In this document: piece by piece, positions 23,393-35,467 of the stretch | Numbering within the stretch: the stretch's first letter is position 1 | Layout of the letters: the number at the start of each line of letters is the position of its first letter | NCBI GenBank assembly: GCA_018333535.1 | Contig: JAGXTA010000191.1 | Location: 1 to 35,920, forward strand | DNA: 35,920 nt | Reading direction: 5' to 3' | Source of the DNA: Deltaproteobacteria bacterium | GTDB taxonomy: Bacteria > Desulfobacterota > BSN033 > UBA1163 | Translations under genes and position numbers: made by a program | Notes under the pieces: generated by a model | What the model saw: the letters and a program-made list of their open reading frames with translations, nothing else | Database searches by the model: none | Told to the model about the DNA's origin: nothing

Positions 23393-24208
23393 TTAATCAG
23401 AAGTTCCGGAAAGGTTGTAATAGTTCCTCTTGTAGGAGTCTCTCAAGAGAGTGAGCGACTCTTTGACCTCGTTGAAGGATCGCTTTAACGCCTCGTATTT
23501 CCTCTCCATCTCCGCATTTTGAGTCAGAGTCTCTTCGAGTCGGGACTGGAGTTCCCGGTTTTCTTCGTGGAAATGGGAGGCTTCACGTTCATTCAACCTT
23601 CCTTTGATTCGGGCCAGCTCGTTCTGACCCATCTGGGACTCCAGTTCGCTGATCCGGCCTAACGCTTCATCCCTCTCCCTGATGGTCTTGGTCAGGTTTT
23701 CTTTCATGCCCCTCAATTCCTGCTGAAACTCTCGTATCTTCTGGAGGGCCTCCTCGTTCTCCTCTTTCAGATAGATCGATTCGGCATGGGCCTCTCTGAA
23801 TCTCTGAAGTTCTTTTCTCTCCGCCTCCAGCTCGGCTCTCAAATCCTTATTGTCCTGAGCGAATTGATGGATGGTCTTCTGGTGGGAGGTCAAATCCATT
23901 TCAAGGGCCTTCTTCGCCCGGCTTGAGACCAGAAGCTGTGTGTGGAGGTCCTCGATCAGCCTGAACACATCGAGATTCTGGCCTGACTCCATAGCTAACC
24001 CAGAGGGTTCAAAAATAGCCCTTTTTTCAACCGGTTTTTCTAAAGGCAGTGTTTCCTGAGTCACTTCAGAGCGGCCCTCTTCGAGAGGCTGGAATTCCTC
24101 TTCCTGTTCCTGCAGAAGGGGCTCCTCCAATTTCCTCATCTTCGGCATCTTTTCCGCCACGCTCCGGTCGAACCCATCGGCTATCATGGTCTGAGTCTTT
24201 ATCTTCAT
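23393..24208 (-). CDS. Long coiled-coil protein of the ParA cluster (PomX-like candidate)
   Basis: The 271-aa protein has a short N-terminal region (to about 85) rich in charged residues and proline, then a nearly continuous coiled coil (about 90-265; runs such as LRAELEAERKELQRFREAH and LQSRLEETLTQNAEMERKYEAL). There is no signal or membrane segment. Its N-terminal DGFDRSVAEKMP and the start of its coil (IEDLHTQLL...KKALEMDL) align with the small protein at 24279 (DEFTNNVAQKFP; IHTLYSELR...RSALEFDL), so the two look paralogous. It is last in the cluster, 70 bp after the small coil gene. A scaffold or ParA-regulating role is inferred from context. Confidence 0.7.
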   Translation of the reverse strand: MKIKTQTMIADGFDRSVAEKMPKMRKLEEPLLQEQEEEFQPLEEGRSEVTQETLPLEKPVEKRAIFEPSGLAMESGQNLDVFRLIEDLHTQLLVSSRAKKALEMDLTSHQKTIHQFAQDNKDLRAELEAERKELQRFREAHAESIYLKEENEEALQKIREFQQELRGMKENLTKTIRERDEALGRISELESQMGQNELARIKGRLNEREASHFHEENRELQSRLEETLTQNAEMERKYEALKRSFNEVKESLTLLRDSYKRNYYNLSGTSD

Positions 24209-24278
24209 CGACCTGCCTCCTCCATACCCTGATTTATCCCTTGCACAATAAGGTCAAAAAGGAAGTTGGGCATGTTGT

Positions 24279-24611
24279 TTACTTGAGCCGTTCCCTCATA
24301 TAGTCTTCCATCGCCCTTAACATCTCGACAATCTTCTCCACCTCTGCCTTGATCTTATTGACTTCCTCAAGAACCCGGCTTGCTCGCTTGAGGTCGAATT
24401 CAAGGGCGGATCGCACGGTCAGGGAGGTGCGAAGTTCCGAATAGAGCGTATGGATCTTGTCCGTGATCTCTTCACGTTTGGGCTCCTCAACGATCCTCTT
24501 GATCGAGGAGACTGCTTTTGGCTCTCCGACATCCCAGGGTTTTTCGATCGATTCCTTGTTCAGGGTGTTGGGAAATTTCTGTGCGACATTGTTGGTGAAC
24601 TCATCCGTCAT
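24279..24611 (-). CDS. Short coiled-coil protein of the ParA cluster, paralogue of its neighbour
   Basis: This is a 110-aa protein. After the N-terminal TDEFTNNVAQKFPNTLNK comes a linker and a helix-rich part (ITDKIHTLYSELRTSLTVRSALEFDLKRA; RVLEEVNKIKAEVEKIVEML). It shares D-x-F-x3-V-A-x-K-x-P and the HT-x-L...AL-E-x-DL pattern with the long coiled-coil protein downstream. The ATG overlaps the parA-like stop by 11 bp, indicating coupled translation. The shared motif near the N-terminus is a candidate ParA-contact segment, by analogy with short basic N-terminal peptides that stimulate ParA ATPases in other systems. Confidence 0.7.
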   Translation of the reverse strand: MTDEFTNNVAQKFPNTLNKESIEKPWDVGEPKAVSSIKRIVEEPKREEITDKIHTLYSELRTSLTVRSALEFDLKRASRVLEEVNKIKAEVEKIVEMLRAMEDYMRERLK

Positions 24612-25632
24612 ATCCGTTTCCTTTCATTCCGAAAATTTCTCCGATCAGGTTTTGTATATCCTCAGCCCCCTTTGAGGAGCGAGCGAATAGAAAAATGGGG
24701 GTCCCCTGGCTGGTGGCCTCAGCTATCTTCGTGTCCTGGCGGATGACCGTGTTGATGAGGTACTTCTTGTAATGGGTCTCCAGGGCCTTCTTTGAGCGCC
24801 TGCAGATCCGGTGGGACTCGTTGTACCGGTTTAAAAAGATGAAGATGTTCTCAAAGACGAAAGAAAAATCCTCTTCAATGGTGGAGAGGGTCTCAAAGAG
24901 GATCTTCAGGCCATGATAGGAGAGAAAATCGGCCAGAACAGGGATGAGAAGGTCATTGGAAGCCAGGATCGCATTGAGGTTTAAGAGCCCGATGCTCGGA
25001 GAGGCATCCATCACGATCACATCATAATTCTTTTCCATTGAACTGAGCAGTCGTTTCAAGCGGAACTCCCTCGAGTTCATCGAAAAGAGTGAAAGCTCCA
25101 CGGGCGAGAGATTCAGGTTCGAAGGAATGATATCAAGCGTGGGGAGATCGGTTTTGACGATGACCTTTTCGATCTCCTCCTTTTCGACCAGCGCATTATA
25201 GAGGGTCTTCGTATACTGTTCGTTGTTAAGGCCCAAGCACTGGGTGAGGTGCCCCTGCGGGTCGAGATCGATCAACAGGATCCGGAATCCCATCTGGGCG
25301 AGACGAAACCCATAAGAAGCCGAGAGGCTGCTCTTTCCTGTTCCGCCCTTAAAGTTGAGGAAGAGCTGTTTCCGGACCGATGGAATGGGCGATGGAAGGG
25401 AGAGGTAGTTGCGATATTTGACCACATCCTCCGGTTTGTAATACCGTTCTTTTCGCTCATTTCTCTTGGCCGGAGGAATGATGCCCTGAGACTCTTTTTC
25501 GAGAAGCTCCTGTTTTGAGATTCCGAGAAGTCTGGCAAAGACCTGCGGAGAATAGACTCTGTCCCCAAAAATCTGAGCCTTTTGAATCAGAGGAAGAGAT
25601 TGGGTCGCCATCGTTTTCGGTCTCAACGTCAC
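24601..25632 (-). CDS. ParA-family ATPase with N-terminal MerR-like DNA-binding segment
   Basis: The 343-aa ATPase has the deviant Walker A KGGTGKSS (95-102, signature Lys95), switch I DLDPQGHLT (122-130) and Walker B IVMDASPSIG. A segment at about 26-78 (VYSPQVFARLLGISKQELLEKESQGIIPPAKR...RYYKPEDVVKYRNYL) looks like a MerR-type winged helix, so it may bind DNA specifically as well as through the usual nonspecific ParA surface. The GTG start overlaps the HEAT-gene stop (GTGA); ATG 25611 is an alternative. It belongs to a five-gene minus-strand cluster with RHH, HEAT and two coiled-coil proteins and presumably positions or segregates a cargo on the nucleoid. Confidence 0.9.
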   Translation of the reverse strand: MTLRPKTMATQSLPLIQKAQIFGDRVYSPQVFARLLGISKQELLEKESQGIIPPAKRNERKERYYKPEDVVKYRNYLSLPSPIPSVRKQLFLNFKGGTGKSSLSASYGFRLAQMGFRILLIDLDPQGHLTQCLGLNNEQYTKTLYNALVEKEEIEKVIVKTDLPTLDIIPSNLNLSPVELSLFSMNSREFRLKRLLSSMEKNYDVIVMDASPSIGLLNLNAILASNDLLIPVLADFLSYHGLKILFETLSTIEEDFSFVFENIFIFLNRYNESHRICRRSKKALETHYKKYLINTVIRQDTKIAEATSQGTPIFLFARSSKGAEDIQNLIGEIFGMKGNGYDG

Positions 25633-26378
25633 CTCGAAAGGAAAATGGTTGCTTTTGTTGCCGGTCTTTCGAGCATTCTATTCAACTGGTCTCTTGCCCA
25701 TTTACGAATATTTGGGTCCAAATCGGTCATCGTCTCCATCAACCTCTGCACTCCTTCTTCGGGATAGAGGGTGACGAGGGAAAAGAGGGCTGCCTTTCTC
25801 ACCTTTGGATCCTCATCTTCCGACATCTCCACGAGGATGGGCAAGACTCCTTCGATCTGATTCCATCCAAGAAGAGTGGCCACTTTCCGTCTCACCCAGG
25901 GAGAATCGTCGCTAAGAAACTGCATAAGAAGATTCAAATCTATCTTCTCCTTGAATCGGAACATCCCTTTGAGGGCAACCATCCTGACCATGGGGTCAGG
26001 ATCCCTTAAATGTTTTTTCAGGAAGGGAGAAATGATTGGGCTCCCGAATGTGACCAGAGTGGAAAGGGCTTGGGCCCTCACGCCTGAATCGGGATCGGAT
26101 AAAATTTCCTGAAGGAGAGGCATGGTGATGGAGAGATGGGATTTCTCGAGATAATATTTTACAGAGATAATCCTCACTTTCGGGTCAGGGTGTTTGAGGT
26201 CTGCCTTCGCCTGTTTCAGAATCTCCCTGGTCGCATGGGTTTCGGGAGCAGGATTAGGTGATGGGGTAGAAGGTCGGCCCGGACCTTTTCCTTTATTAGG
26301 TGAAGGGAGGGTTTGATCCAGCGGATTATTCTCCATCTCTGCGGATTTTAGATAGATCAGTCGAAAACGGTCTGTCAA
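25629..26378 (-). CDS. HEAT-repeat protein of the ParA cluster (PomY-like candidate)
   Basis: The 249-aa protein has a Pro-rich N-terminal linker (PSPNKGKGPGRPSTPSPNPAP), then about five HEAT/PBS-lyase-type repeats of ~30 residues. Recurrent blocks are HPDPKVRIISVKYYL, DPDSGVRAQALSTLV, DPDPMVRMVALKGMF, DSPWVRRKVATLLG, DEDPKVRKAALFSLV and DPNIRKWARDQL. Such repeats form protein-binding solenoids. The TTG at 26378 has GGGGAG correctly spaced; ATG 26336 is the alternative. It overlaps the ParA gene by 4 bp and follows the RHH gene by 12 bp. In Myxococcus, PomY is a HEAT-containing partner of ParA-like PomZ, which makes the combination noteworthy, although this protein is much smaller. Confidence 0.85.
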   Translation of the reverse strand: MTDRFRLIYLKSAEMENNPLDQTLPSPNKGKGPGRPSTPSPNPAPETHATREILKQAKADLKHPDPKVRIISVKYYLEKSHLSITMPLLQEILSDPDSGVRAQALSTLVTFGSPIISPFLKKHLRDPDPMVRMVALKGMFRFKEKIDLNLLMQFLSDDSPWVRRKVATLLGWNQIEGVLPILVEMSEDEDPKVRKAALFSLVTLYPEEGVQRLMETMTDLDPNIRKWARDQLNRMLERPATKATIFLSR

Positions 26379-26390
26379 AATGATCTCCCC

Positions 26391-26612
26391 TTAAAAACCA
26401 AAATCTTTCTGAATCGCTTTCTCTGTAAAGGAATCTTTAAATTCGAATTTCAACTGTTCAGAATACTTATCCAGAAGCATATCCAGGGCCTCCCTCACAT
26501 AGACAGCCTGGGGGACCTTCGTCCTGTCGGATAATTTTTTCAGGGCCTCTACCTGATCGCTATTGATATAGATTGTTCTGGCAACCTTTGTCTGAGACAA
26601 GTAAATCTCCAT
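26391..26612 (-). CDS. Ribbon-helix-helix DNA-binding protein, first gene of the ParA cluster
   Basis: The ~73-aa RHH (CopG/Arc-like) protein has strand ARTIYINSDQVEALKKLS, helix-turn DRTKVPQAVYVREALDMLLDKY and a charged tail ending FTEKAIQKDFGF. The start is ATG 26612 (a TTG at 26615 is adjacent). No ribosome site is present and the -10 box is about 15 bp upstream, so the mRNA is nearly leaderless. The promoter overlaps a repeated ATACAAT/ATTGTAT array likely bound by this protein. It may be an autorepressor, or the centromere-binding partner of the ParA, as in ParFG or delta-omega systems. Confidence 0.8.
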   Translation of the reverse strand: MEIYLSQTKVARTIYINSDQVEALKKLSDRTKVPQAVYVREALDMLLDKYSEQLKFEFKDSFTEKAIQKDFGF

Positions 26613-26625
26613 CAAATAGTTTAAA

Positions 26626-26653
26626 ATACAATATAATACAATACATATATTGT
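26626..26653. promoter_or_regulatory. Candidate RHH operator / iteron array
   Basis: ATACAAT occurs at 26626 and 26636 (10-bp period, one helical turn), and the second joins a perfect palindrome ACAATA-CATA-TATTGT (26638-26653). The array overlaps the spacer and -10 box of the ParA-cluster promoter, the expected place for an RHH autorepressor or partition site. Confidence 0.55.
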
Positions 26654-26656
26654 CAA
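26628..26656 (-). promoter_or_regulatory. Promoter of the RHH-HEAT-ParA-coiled-coil cluster
   Basis: On the minus strand TTGACA (26656-26651), 17 bp, then TATTGT (26633-26628, 4/6). The start codon at 26612 follows after 15 bp without a ribosome site. Confidence 0.6.
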
Positions 26657-27056: not shown

Positions 27057-28610
27057 ATGCTTCTCATCCATCCTCCTGTTGCCAAACCATGCGAGCCTCC
27101 AGCAGGTATCGCCAAGCTCTGCAGCGCCCTTAATCATCATGGGATTAGGTACAGTGTTTGTGATGCGAATTTGGAAGGGCTTCTCAGCCTTTTGAGGAAT
27201 CCACCTGCGTCATTTGATACATGGACCTCCCGAGCACTTCATCATCTTCCCGGACATCTCGATTCTTTCAAGGGTTGGGATGGATATAAAAATCAAGATC
27301 GTTATCGCCGGGCCATCAAGGATCTAAACCGGCTTCTTGAGATGAAGGCACGTTCCAGCAATGTGCGTCTTAGTCTCACAAATTATGAGCACGAAACACT
27401 CTCTTCTGTAAGAAGCGGGGATCTTTTAAGGGCTTCAGAACATCCAGAAGACAATCCTTTTTATCCCTATTTTAAGAAACGGCTCACCGAGCTTTTGAGA
27501 AATGAACCGCTTTCCCTGATCGGTTTTTCGCTCAACTATTTAAGCCAGGCCCTGTGCACATTCGCAATGATCGGTTTTCTTAAATGGGAGTGGCCAGGGA
27601 TAAAATTGATTCTGGGCGGAGGGCTCGTGACTTCATGGATGAGAAAGCCCCATTGGCAAAATCCCTTTAATGGGTTGGTGGATCATCTTGTGGCAGGACC
27701 AGGGGAAGTTCCTTTGCTTTTACTCATGGGGGTAAGGGAGGCCGGAGATATTCCTTATGCACCAAGTTATGATTCTTTCCCTCTCAAAGATTACTTTGCT
27801 CCCGGGCCTATTCTTCCCTACAGCGCCTCAAGCGGATGCTATTGGAACAGGTGTTCATTCTGTCCGGAAAGGGCCGAGGGAAATTCTTACCATGCCATTC
27901 CTTCAGACAAAGTGATTAACGATCTCCGCCACCTTGTTCATAAACATAAGCCGGTTCTTATCCATTTTCTGGACAATGCGATCAGTCCGTCATTGTTAAA
28001 GGCCATCTGCAAAAATCCTCCGGGTGCATCCTGGTATGGCTTTGCGAGGATCACCCGCGATCTCACCGATCCGGATTTCTGTTTGGCTCTGAAACGTTCG
28101 GGATGTGTAATGTTAAAGCTTGGTTTGGAATCGGGAGACCAGGGGGTGCTCGATGATCTGCAAAAGGGGATCGACCTTGAGGAGGCTTCGTCAGCATTAA
28201 AGAGCCTGAAAAAGGCGGGGATTGCCGCCTATGTCTACCTTCTGTTTGGAACTCCCGTAGAAGCCCTGACAGAGGCCCGAAGGACTCTTGCGTTTGTCGT
28301 TAAACATCATGATTGCATTGGTTTCCTCAATCTTGCCATCTTCAATATGCCGATCTACGGAGCCGAAGCCCATCAGATGGAGACGAAACAATTTTATGAA
28401 GGAGACCTCTCTCTTTATACAAGCTTCAATCACCCGAAAGGATGGAGCAGGCCATTGATCAGGCAATTCTTAGACAAGGAATTCAAGAGACACCCTGCCA
28501 TAGCGCCGATTTTGAGAAGAGATCCCCCGGTCTTCACCTCCAACCACGCCCCCTTCTTCGTTAGGGATGGAAGGCACGTTCCGCACAAACTTCCCCTTTG
28601 GTTTACTTAA
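27057..28610 (+). CDS. B12-binding-type radical SAM protein
   Basis: The 517-aa protein has an N-terminal cobalamin-binding-like region (MLLIHPPVAKPCEPPAGIAKL; LIGFSLNYLSQ...LILGGGLVTSW; DHLVAGPGEVPL) and a radical SAM domain from about 255. The cluster motif is SGCYWNRCSFC, giving C-x4-C-x2-C instead of C-x3-C-x2-C; a CYWxxC form is seen in part of the B12-radical SAM group. ELP3-like strands follow (RITRDLTDPDFC; MLKLGLESGDQGVLDDLQKGI; GIAAYVYLLFGTPVEAL). Substrate is unknown; such enzymes do methylations, rearrangements or RiPP modification. It has no operon partners and no clear ribosome site. Confidence 0.85.
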   Translation: MLLIHPPVAKPCEPPAGIAKLCSALNHHGIRYSVCDANLEGLLSLLRNPPASFDTWTSRALHHLPGHLDSFKGWDGYKNQDRYRRAIKDLNRLLEMKARSSNVRLSLTNYEHETLSSVRSGDLLRASEHPEDNPFYPYFKKRLTELLRNEPLSLIGFSLNYLSQALCTFAMIGFLKWEWPGIKLILGGGLVTSWMRKPHWQNPFNGLVDHLVAGPGEVPLLLLMGVREAGDIPYAPSYDSFPLKDYFAPGPILPYSASSGCYWNRCSFCPERAEGNSYHAIPSDKVINDLRHLVHKHKPVLIHFLDNAISPSLLKAICKNPPGASWYGFARITRDLTDPDFCLALKRSGCVMLKLGLESGDQGVLDDLQKGIDLEEASSALKSLKKAGIAAYVYLLFGTPVEALTEARRTLAFVVKHHDCIGFLNLAIFNMPIYGAEAHQMETKQFYEGDLSLYTSFNHPKGWSRPLIRQFLDKEFKRHPAIAPILRRDPPVFTSNHAPFFVRDGRHVPHKLPLWFT

Positions 28611-32134: not shown

Positions 32135-32392
32135 ATGTCAGTAGCCATAACGATAGACCTGCCAGAAACGGTGTTTTCGGCGATTCGAAAGAGCCCTTCC
32201 GAATTCGCAGCAGAAATGCGACTGGCTGCAGCCGTGAAATGGTATGAGATGGGGGTTGTTTCACAGGAAAAGGCGTCTGAGATTGCCGGTCAGACGCGGG
32301 CTGACTTTATTCTCTCATTAGCCCGTTTCGGTGTATCACCTTTCCAATCTACTGCTGATGAAATAATGGAAGACCTTCGTCATGCCGATTAA
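32135..32392 (+). CDS. UPF0175-family antitoxin
   Basis: The 85-aa protein has the UPF0175 pattern: an N-terminal strand (VAITIDLPETVF), then EFAAEMRLAAAVKWYEMGVVSQEKASEIAGQTRADFILSLARFGVSPF. The middle is a helix-turn-helix-like element that probably contacts the inverted repeat just upstream. Its stop overlaps the toxin start by 11 bp, the usual coupling of toxin-antitoxin pairs. A strong TAGGAGG ribosome site gives high antitoxin synthesis. Confidence 0.88.
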   Translation: MSVAITIDLPETVFSAIRKSPSEFAAEMRLAAAVKWYEMGVVSQEKASEIAGQTRADFILSLARFGVSPFQSTADEIMEDLRHAD

Positions 32393-32873
32393 TCGCGTTG
32401 TGGTTAACGCCTCTCCGCTTATCTGCCTTTTCAAGAGCGGACTCGAAGATTTATTCCCTTCGTTGTTTAACGATATTGTTGTGCCGGAGGCTGTGATCAA
32501 GGAGGTCACAGCCAAAGGAGAAGTGGACCTTGCCGCTCAGACACTCATTTCGCTTTCATGGATACGGCGCATGGGCAATGGTCCCGTTGATCCTCGTGTG
32601 GCGGCATGGGACTTGGGTAATGGAGAGAGCGCTGTTCTTTCGTTTGCATTAAGAAATCCTGGGTATTGGGCGATTTTGGACGACCGTGAGGCCCGACGTT
32701 GTGCCTTATCGCTTCAATGCCACTGTATTGGGACTATCGGAATGATCGTCCTTGCCAAAAAGAGAGCATTAATCCGGTCACTTGGAGAAACTCTCAAAAG
32801 ACTTCAAAATGCCGGATTTTGGCTATCAGAGACTTTTTTGAACGAAATTTGCGAAAAGGTTGGAGAAAGGTAA
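32382..32873 (+). CDS. DUF3368 PIN-domain toxin
   Basis: The 163-aa PIN-fold ribonuclease-like protein partners UPF0175 antitoxins. It opens with VVVNASPLICLFKSG, in which the usual first Asp is Asn (NASPL, a variant also known in this family). It has the conserved Glu in PEAVIKEV, then DLGNGESAVLSFAL (Gly-x-Gly-Glu-Ser) and AILDDREARRCA with the central acidic pair, ending in LLKKRGLI-like AKKRALIRSL and LQNAGFWLSE. It would cleave RNA when the antitoxin is lost. Overlap with the antitoxin frame and flanking direct repeats suggest a mobile cassette. Confidence 0.88.
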   Translation: MPINRVVVNASPLICLFKSGLEDLFPSLFNDIVVPEAVIKEVTAKGEVDLAAQTLISLSWIRRMGNGPVDPRVAAWDLGNGESAVLSFALRNPGYWAILDDREARRCALSLQCHCIGTIGMIVLAKKRALIRSLGETLKRLQNAGFWLSETFLNEICEKVGER

Positions 32874-33539: not shown

Positions 33540-35467
33540 GCCCGTTTAGGTTCTCCATAGCACTTCTCCATCCCCTGCCACCTCAAACCGTACGTGAGGT
33601 TTTCCCCCATACGGCTTTCCTGTTCTCTTCGCAACAAAGTCTATACACCTATCGACTTGGAGCCGCTTTCGGAGAGAGATATCGGATCTGGTAGTCGTTG
33701 TATAATCCCCATTTCCCGTAAATCTCTTCCCTACTCCACCGCTTCCAGCCGAAGCCCTTCCATCCCTTTCTCTTCATGACAAACCGTCTCACCTTCTTCT
33801 CAATAAAGTGCTTCACTTTGTCAAAGGTGCTACTACTATTGCCTATCTTGAAGTAGTTCACCCAGCCCCGCACCACTGCATTGACGGCCTGGATCACTTC
33901 CTCCAGCGGTTTGTCATGATGGAACTTGAGCACCGCCCTCACCTTTCTACCAATCTCTTTACGCTTCTTCATCCGGGGAGTCTTACTGACGTAGGTATTC
34001 CCTTTTCGATTCCGATTGAGCCGTATGTCGAACCCAAGAAAGCTAAAACAACCACTGTTTTTCAGGTTCACTTCCCTGGTCTTTTCCAGGTTCATCTGTA
34101 CTTGAAGCTTGTCCAACTCTTCCTTCAACCGCCTCTGTACAGTCTTAAACAGCCACTCTTCACTCGGATGACCGTGAACCAGGATTACCATATCGTCCGC
34201 ACTTCGGATGTAGTCGAGGTTATAGTACCCTTTGCGCCGGGTGACTTCCCGCGCCCTCTCCATCATCTCATCCACCCCATTGAGGTACAGGTTCGACAAC
34301 AGGGGCGAGATCACCCCTCCTTGTGGCACCCCCTTGGTTCCATTGGCTTTGAGGATCAGTCTCAACAAGTGCATGATTTCTGCATCCTGTACCCGACGCC
34401 CCACCTGCTCCAATAGAAGATGATGCCTGATGTTATCGAAGTATCCGCTCAGATCAACGTCTACCACCCTCGTCAGTCCCTGCAATATCCCTCTCGTTAC
34501 TCGGTCTATCGCTTGATGGGCATGTCGCCTCGGCCTGTACCCATAGGAGCACCCCCTGAAGTCCGCTTCAAAGATCGACTCAAGAATCAGTTTCAGCGCC
34601 CCCTGCACCACCCGGTCTTTCACCGTCGGTATCCCCAGGATTCGGGTCTTACCATTCTCTTTCGGTATCTCCACCCGCCTGTTGGACATCGGTCGGTAAG
34701 TCCGGTTGAGTAGTTCCTGTCTGATCCCTTCCAGAAATCCATCCACTCCCTCCGCTTCGATGTCCTCAAAACTCTTCCCATCGATGCCGGGCGCCCCTTC
34801 ATTTGCTTTTGCTATTCGATAGGCTTCTTCCAGGACTTCCTTCTTCGAGATGTGACAGTACAGCCCCCAGAACTTCCAGTGCTTCTCGGTCTTCGCTTTG
34901 CTGTATATCTTTCGCCTCAGCTCCTGCAGATTTACGGAAGCTTTTATCATTCTCCCCTGCCTCACCTCCGTCGAAAGACCCAAGATACAGCAGAGCCCCT
35001 TCGCTCCGGTAAGGTTATGTTGTCCTTACCCTCCTCGCTACTACAGACTCATCCGCCACCCTCTCGCCTGTCAGTCCATTTCGTCTTTCAACTTATAGGA
35101 CCTACTTTTCTCCTGCCGTTTCCGTCAGGGACGAGGAGGGCTTCCCCAGTTGACAGCGCCTCTCTCTATCCATGTCGCCGCTGCTACCCCGCCGCCGCCC
35201 TTTTCCCTTTCAGCCAGTCTTAGGAATAGGATTCTGCCTTCGCCTGGTAATTACTGGCTCGGCCAGTGGAACTTGGCAATTACGAGGCTACTTCTACGTT
35301 CACGTAAGTTACGACCTGGATAGTTGCTCATCCCGCCTTGCGGGACTTCGTCGATGGGCTTCAGAAGGAAGCGTTTCCCCTTCCCCCTGCCATCCAAGCT
35401 ACATGGCTCTGGCTTCTACCATGACGGGACTCTCACCCGTTAGAATGCACTGCCCTTCGCTGGGCAC
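33540..35467 (-). ncRNA. Group II intron (ribozyme with intron-encoded protein)
   Basis: On the minus strand the 5' end is probably GTGCCCAGCGAAGGGCAGTG at 35467 (GUG-type intron start), followed by the domain I text GGGTGAGAGTCCCGTCA. The reverse transcriptase lies in domain IV. Domain V is clear near 33616-33573: AAAGCCGTATGGGGGAAAA then CCTCACGTACGGTTT, a GCCGTA...TACGGT stem capped by a GGAAAAC-type loop. A domain VI-like segment with a candidate branch-point A follows, so the 3' splice site should be around 33535-33555; its exact place is uncertain. Size is about 1.9 kb. Confidence 0.8.
33649..34950 (-). CDS. Group II intron reverse transcriptase/maturase, YADD replaced by SADD
   Basis: The ~433-aa intron-encoded protein has an RT domain (GAPGIDGKSFEDIE; RRVEIPKENGKTRILGIPTVKDRVVQGALKLILE; SYGYRPRRHAHQAI; VVDVDLSGYFDNI; KGVPQGGVISPLLSNLYL) and the maturase X domain (ending KGWKGFGWKRWSREEIYGKWGL). 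There is no HNH endonuclease domain, so mobility would be endonuclease-independent. The catalytic box reads DYIRSADDMVIL: both aspartates remain (252, 253), but the usual Tyr is Ser250 (codon AGT at 34203-34201). A codon change from TAT/TAC needs two substitutions. The ATG at 34950 is preferred to the upstream TTG at 34983. It splices and retro-mobilises the surrounding intron if active. Confidence 0.93.
   Translation of the reverse strand: MIKASVNLQELRRKIYSKAKTEKHWKFWGLYCHISKKEVLEEAYRIAKANEGAPGIDGKSFEDIEAEGVDGFLEGIRQELLNRTYRPMSNRRVEIPKENGKTRILGIPTVKDRVVQGALKLILESIFEADFRGCSYGYRPRRHAHQAIDRVTRGILQGLTRVVDVDLSGYFDNIRHHLLLEQVGRRVQDAEIMHLLRLILKANGTKGVPQGGVISPLLSNLYLNGVDEMMERAREVTRRKGYYNLDYIRSADDMVILVHGHPSEEWLFKTVQRRLKEELDKLQVQMNLEKTREVNLKNSGCFSFLGFDIRLNRNRKGNTYVSKTPRMKKRKEIGRKVRAVLKFHHDKPLEEVIQAVNAVVRGWVNYFKIGNSSSTFDKVKHFIEKKVRRFVMKRKGWKGFGWKRWSREEIYGKWGLYNDYQIRYLSPKAAPSR

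Follow-up and report, generated by a model that had tools for sequence, protein, structure and literature searches.

The five-gene cluster described here is best explained as a Pom-type positioning module that is homologous to PomY-PomZ-PomX of Myxococcus and most likely marks the division site; we give this reading, taken as a whole, a probability of about 0.75. The cluster lies in a window of 35,920 nucleotides, a contig of a 4.39-Mb assembly (97% complete) of a Deltaproteobacteria bacterium. A first-pass annotation of this DNA had pointed out a resemblance to the PomXYZ system. Reciprocal best hits, membership of the PomZ clade, the gene order, a unique PomY match, and PomX-type peptides carry this comparison beyond resemblance to homology.

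Gene Layout and Flanking Genes

All five annotated ORFs were found at positions 23393-26656 on the minus strand (table 1). They are as tightly packed as had been claimed: the HEAT and ParA genes overlap by 4 bp, the ParA and short coiled-coil genes overlap by 11 bp, and the gaps are 12 bp (RHH-HEAT) and 70 bp (short-long coiled-coil genes). In addition, the deviant Walker A motif of ParA, described earlier as intact, was found whole. The cluster is flanked by ordinary chromosomal genes on the opposite strand, with those of an RRM protein and S21 on one side and a radical SAM gene on the other, and the flanking genes are kept across the window's family.

The adjoining radical SAM gene is of the B12 type, runs in the opposite direction, and has a best NCBIfam match far under the cut-off. 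At five loci of the family (L045-L047, L049, L051), a distant radical SAM gene sits between the long coiled-coil gene and S21. Elsewhere in the window, there is a likely toxin-antitoxin pair, in which an 85-aa small protein overlaps a DUF3368 (PIN-like) protein, and a group II intron with an RNA match (group-II-D1D4-4) and a reverse transcriptase/maturase ORF. The catalytic motif of such maturases is normally YADD. Here, it is SADD (IRSADDMVIL), a change that may impair the enzyme.

Table 1. Features of the cluster and other elements of the window
Feature	Position	Strand	Remarks
Cluster promoter/putative operator	26627-26656	-	TTGACA / 17 / TATTGT, overlapped by ACAATA-N4-TATTGTATTATATTGTA
RHH protein	26391-26615	-	RHH_3, E 1.6e-15
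HEAT-repeat protein, 249 aa	25629-26378	-	HEAT_2, E 1.9e-33
ParA ATPase, 343 aa, PomZ orthologue	24601-25632	-	AAA_31, E 4e-47
Deviant Walker A motif of ParA	25327-25350	-	KGGTGKSS
Short coiled-coil protein, 110 aa	24279-24611	-	N-terminal PomX-type peptide, PWDV motif, one short coil
PomX-NPEP-like peptide of short coiled-coil protein	24567-24611	-	MTDEFTNNVAQKFPN; 21.0 bits, other-lineage profile
Long coiled-coil protein, 271 aa, PomX-like	23393-24208	-
PomX-NPEP-like peptide of long coiled-coil protein	24140-24184	-	IADGFDRSVAEKMPK; best window 20-mer, myxobacterial PomX profile
B12-type radical SAM gene	27057-28610	+
Likely toxin-antitoxin pair	32135-32873	+
Group II intron	33649-34983 with 35304-35442	-

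The ParA Protein Is an Orthologue of PomZ

Comparison in both directions gave reciprocal best hits. The best match of the window ParA in three Myxococcaceae genomes is PomZ (51-52% identity, E about 1e-94), with Soj at about 31-33%, and the best match of PomZ in the window's genome is the window ParA (E 5.7e-95, against 1.1e-41 for Soj). Furthermore, the window ParA and PomZ fall into one clade with 100/100 support, which also takes in a long-branch control (L025). Thus, at the level of sequence comparison, the window ParA is an orthologue of PomZ.

The functional residues of PomZ point in the same direction. The equivalents of G62, K66, D90, and the DNA-binding Lys268 are all present, and DNA binding is predicted for the window protein. 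With both activator pockets of PomZ taken as modelled in PMC13170346, most of their non-polar residues are identical or conservatively replaced in the window ParA, but not in Soj. Among the positions reported to contact the PomX peptide, F202, E219, A249, Y254, and S274 are kept and positions 205, 229, 242, and 257 have changed conservatively, whereas the Soj proteins have different residues at most of them. The acidic residues at positions 248 and 256 are replaced by Lys in the window ParA. Among 67 loci, all 30 with a basic residue at peptide position 13 have an acidic residue at PomZ position 256, which otherwise occurs in 5 of 37; the Fisher value for this pairing (5e-14) is not a probability because the 67 loci are related by descent. 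This pattern fits a contact shared by peptide and ATPase.

The MerR-like head ascribed to ParA was upheld in part. A helical head is confidently modelled at residues about 20-80, but the match to Pfam MerR_1 stays below the threshold (19.5 vs. 21.6 bits). Owing to a shallow alignment, AlphaFold gave low confidence for the rest of the protein. PomZ likewise has an N-terminal extension ahead of its ATPase domain.

The genome contains a separate rsmG-soj-parB locus, and thus the window ParA is not the one of an ordinary ParABS system. We rejected the reading as chromosomal ParABS: a ParB-like gene was found next to a different ParA, on contig C24, and none beside the window ParA at the locus.

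The HEAT Protein and PomY

As for PomY, the HEAT-repeat gene is next to a pomZ-type gene, and it is the sole match of PomY in the whole genome of the window (E 9.7e-6). Comparison of its profile with the HEAT region of PomY gave a probability of 97.6, although HEAT repeats match one another easily. In the AlphaFold model, a disordered N-terminal part (low pLDDT, residues 1-42) that comprises a short helix and a disordered stretch is followed by six HEAT helix pairs, and the protein ends just past them. The N-terminal coiled coil of PomY, its long disordered region, and its winged-helix end with activating function are absent from the window protein of 249 aa. The coiled coil of PomY is required for condensates (PMC10307791), and its C-terminal region 496-682 carries the activating function (PMC13170346).

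Two Coiled-Coil Proteins with PomX-Type Peptides

Residues 1-22 of PomX activate PomZ, and K13 and R15 are required for this activation (PMC7993993). Both coiled-coil proteins of the window have, as PomX does, an N-terminal peptide of the activating type followed by a coiled coil; the C-terminal part of the long protein is heptad-like as judged by eye. A profile trained only on myxobacterial PomX ranked the peptide of the long protein first in the window and did not detect the short protein (-0.9 bits). With a profile from other lineages, the two peptides ranked first (long, 38.7 bits) and second (short) in the window, the next window 20-mer reached 10.5 bits, and the best unrelated one among 153,550 20-mers of the family scored 13.2 bits. 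K13 and R15 themselves are not kept: position 13 is Met or Phe, R15 is replaced by Lys in the long and Asn in the short protein, and there is a Lys at position 12. A search of the window's genome with full-length PomX gave no match, so gene order and a peptide of about 15 residues are what supports the homology of the coiled-coil proteins.

In a single comparison, the short protein aligned over nearly its whole length with the only coiled-coil protein at the locus of a Planctomycetota MAG (E 3e-8), and the PWDV motif and coil are common to both. Direct comparison of the short and long proteins gave a weak match (E 0.013). Probably, the short protein is a paralogue of the long one that has been shortened, and it would provide a second activating peptide. 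We also considered a client protein elsewhere with the same peptide; a pattern scan of the genome returned the two cluster genes and one match opposite an ABC-transporter permease-like gene, which was judged spurious.

The RHH Gene and Its Promoter

The promoter, with its overlapping 27-bp putative operator, is conserved ahead of RHH in an alignment of 10 family members, and a scan of the 4.39-Mb genome allowing up to 3 mismatches found only one operator match. Conservation suggests that the real start of RHH is likely the TTG at 26600, which would give a protein of 69 aa beginning about 10 residues ahead of its domain. Most likely, RHH represses its own promoter.

Conservation in the Family and Phylum

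A gene-neighbourhood survey, which the first-pass annotation had suggested as a check, recovered all five genes, identically ordered, in 12 of the 16 other genomes of the family. In all 13 genomes with a ParA match (81-95% identity), the RHH, HEAT, and long coiled-coil genes keep this order. The thirteenth, G001 (L043/L058), has four of the five genes: the short coiled-coil gene is cleanly gone from between ParA and the long coiled-coil gene, which indicates that it is dispensable or was recently lost there. No ParA match was found in the other three genomes, which belong to the same genus. One of them (G005, 98% complete) has neither the cluster nor the neighbouring RRM gene; in another (G007), the cluster is also missing, but the neighbouring RRM gene is only 572 bp from the contig end. 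Across the phylum, a ParA orthologue is present in 19 of 297 evenly drawn genomes, and these belong to three families.

Distribution of Pom-Type Modules across Phyla

With the ParA alignment as the only query, named genomes yielded 80 loci, which come from Syntrophaceae and other "Deltaproteobacteria" MAGs, Planctomycetota, Latescibacterota, Gemmatimonadota, and many Myxococcaceae. A HEAT gene adjoins ParA in 71 of them, and in 78 the gene directly downstream of ParA starts with a PomX-type peptide. The common order, HEAT-ParA-coiled-coil, is that of pomY-pomZ-pomX. For instance, Myxococcus sp. RHSTA-1-4 (L132) has a coiled-coil/HEAT protein, then ParA, and then a coiled-coil protein starting MKKAFEQNVSRAKPRLRLG. 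We took these genes as pomY, pomZ, and pomX because the architecture is the published one (PMC13170346), ParA has 319 residues, and the PomZ positions agree; the expected residue was present at 25 of 25 positions looked up, some of them taken from PMC13170346. The downstream protein starts like MKDGFDKSVAEKMPK in Syntrophaceae, MGNKFDENVAGKMPK in Planctomycetota, MADNFDTNVAKRKPN in Latescibacterota, MSSRFNDNVPSRKPR in Gemmatimonadetes, and MKRGFEENVPKVRPR in other delta loci. Among the 80 loci, the RHH gene is restricted to those of the window's own family.

At two Planctomycetota (L067, L092) and two Latescibacterota (L091, L093) loci, the survey detected no HEAT gene next to ParA; L092 lies on a short contig. 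With a PomZ-type ParA and a peptide-bearing coiled-coil protein, these four are possibly two-part versions of the module.

The neighbours of the module are lineage-specific, and across the whole locus set no cargo gene recurred beside it. In G026 (L052, 8828-13426, minus strand), the three genes come directly after an apparent ruvC-ruvA-ruvB, which ties the module to a recombination operon there. In family f34 (L068-L086), it is repeatedly near a priA-like gene, and its neighbours include genes judged by eye to encode a membrane sensor kinase, a response regulator, and a PEP-CTERM-like protein.

On these comparisons, the Pom-type module occurs well beyond myxobacteria, in several phyla. Previous studies described the co-occurrence of PomXYZ in Cystobacterineae (PMC7993993) and its conservation "in myxobacteria" (PMC13170346). 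In the literature outside subscription journals, our search found PomXYZ described in myxobacteria only and no report joining PomZ with Desulfobacterota, and no Pom family in NCBIfam names the window proteins.

Proposed Mechanism

In the mechanism that we propose, ATP-bound ParA dimers would bind the nucleoid, and the long coiled-coil protein, the short one, and the HEAT protein would build one large assembly. Docking of the N-terminal peptides in the ParA dimer cleft would trigger ATP hydrolysis, and the assembly would travel over the nucleoid to the point of balanced ParA fluxes, near midcell. There, it would most likely mark the division site for FtsZ. Perhaps the short coiled-coil protein replaces the activating C-terminus that the HEAT protein lacks, and self-repression by RHH would keep dosage low and fixed.

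The division site is likely the cargo. We keep this claim at likely because the HEAT protein is without the regions of PomY that are linked to FtsZ, and because a few close relatives do not have the module. FtsZ is present in the window's genome, and no division gene adjoins the cluster. MinC was not found in this genome or the 16 other family genomes; this lends little weight to a division role, as MinC is rare in the phylum sample anyway (3 of 59 genomes).

Alternative Explanations

The RHH gene and the head of ParA had been taken as hints of a plasmid segrosome. On this account, the cluster is a plasmid-type DNA segregation cassette in which RHH binds the centromere and ParA is the motor. 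An RHH gene beside a ParA with a helical head does recall ParFG and delta-omega, and the best NCBIfam match of ParA is plasmid RepA, though at 117 bits against a cut-off of 348. Nevertheless, the hints were not supported. RHH is confined to one family, the few residues ahead of its domain leave no ParG-like tail, the putative operator consists of one short site at the promoter of RHH and not of an array, and an N-terminal extension is present in PomZ as well. The chromosomal flanks kept across the family, the rsmG-soj-parB locus elsewhere, and the grouping of ParA with PomZ also speak against it. With no iterated centromere, and with RHH outside the conserved module, we rejected this account as very improbable. 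A chance neighbourhood of unrelated genes is more improbable still, to the point of being negligible. HEAT and coiled-coil proteins are frequent and information-poor, but linkage by chance is contradicted by the family survey and by the recurrence of the HEAT-ParA-peptide order over several phyla.

More serious, though still unlikely, is a Pom-type machine with the same ParA, scaffold, and peptides but a cargo other than the Z-ring, such as an assembly of enzymes, a chemosensory array, or a structure at the cell pole. The PomY parts for FtsZ recruitment and condensation are absent here, and neighbours vary by lineage with none recurring across the set. In addition, the apparent absence of ParA from three genomes of the same genus, and with it of the module from some close relatives, would be odd for an essential division factor. 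Against this, no chemotaxis or other cargo genes are linked within the window, the closest characterised relative positions FtsZ, and the family has FtsZ in the window's genome and no detected MinC. We prefer the division site as cargo.

Comparison with Known Systems

With the module present in more than one phylum, what looked like a peculiarity of a single organism becomes a positioning machine of a general kind. Its natural minimal versions, with a short or no HEAT protein and one or two short scaffolds, offer a way to ask which component is responsible for moving the assembly and which for choosing the cargo. Furthermore, where MinC is rare in a lineage, the module is a candidate for the system that places the division site.

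PomXYZ was reported in recent work as the sole ParA/MinD system with two activators. Joining all loci, we tentatively propose, at somewhat less than even odds, that the cross-phylum core may be only PomZ and a peptide-bearing coiled-coil protein, with HEAT/PomY present in most lineages and the division-specific parts of PomY belonging to the branch with myxobacteria. In the window's family, the duplicated coiled-coil protein would supply the second activator; the two-activator logic would thus have two origins, each by its own route, and the charges at the peptide-ATPase contact would have been rebuilt.

The ParFG and delta-omega segrosomes share with the window a ParA-type ATPase and an RHH partner gene nearby. 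However, the window has no centromere array, its RHH is found in one family and lacks a ParG-like tail, and its ParA goes with PomZ. The Pom-type modules of Syntrophaceae-type MAGs (L066, L081, L089) are closer, with a short HEAT protein, a PomZ-type ParA, and a peptide-bearing coiled-coil protein. They differ in having one coiled-coil protein, no RHH gene, and other neighbours (ruvCAB in L052; priA-like and others in f34).

The PomXYZ system of Myxococcus xanthus (PMC7993993, PMC10307791, PMC13170346) shares with the window a PomZ orthologue, the HEAT-ParA-coiled-coil order, the PomX-type peptide, and HEAT repeats. The window ParA keeps the DNA-binding Lys and much of both activator pockets of PomZ. 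The HEAT part of PomY is alike, whereas the coiled coil and the C-terminal activating region occur in PomY only. Moreover, in the window the role of PomX is split over two proteins, the charge of the activating peptide is shifted, an RHH regulator is added, and the host is not a myxobacterium.
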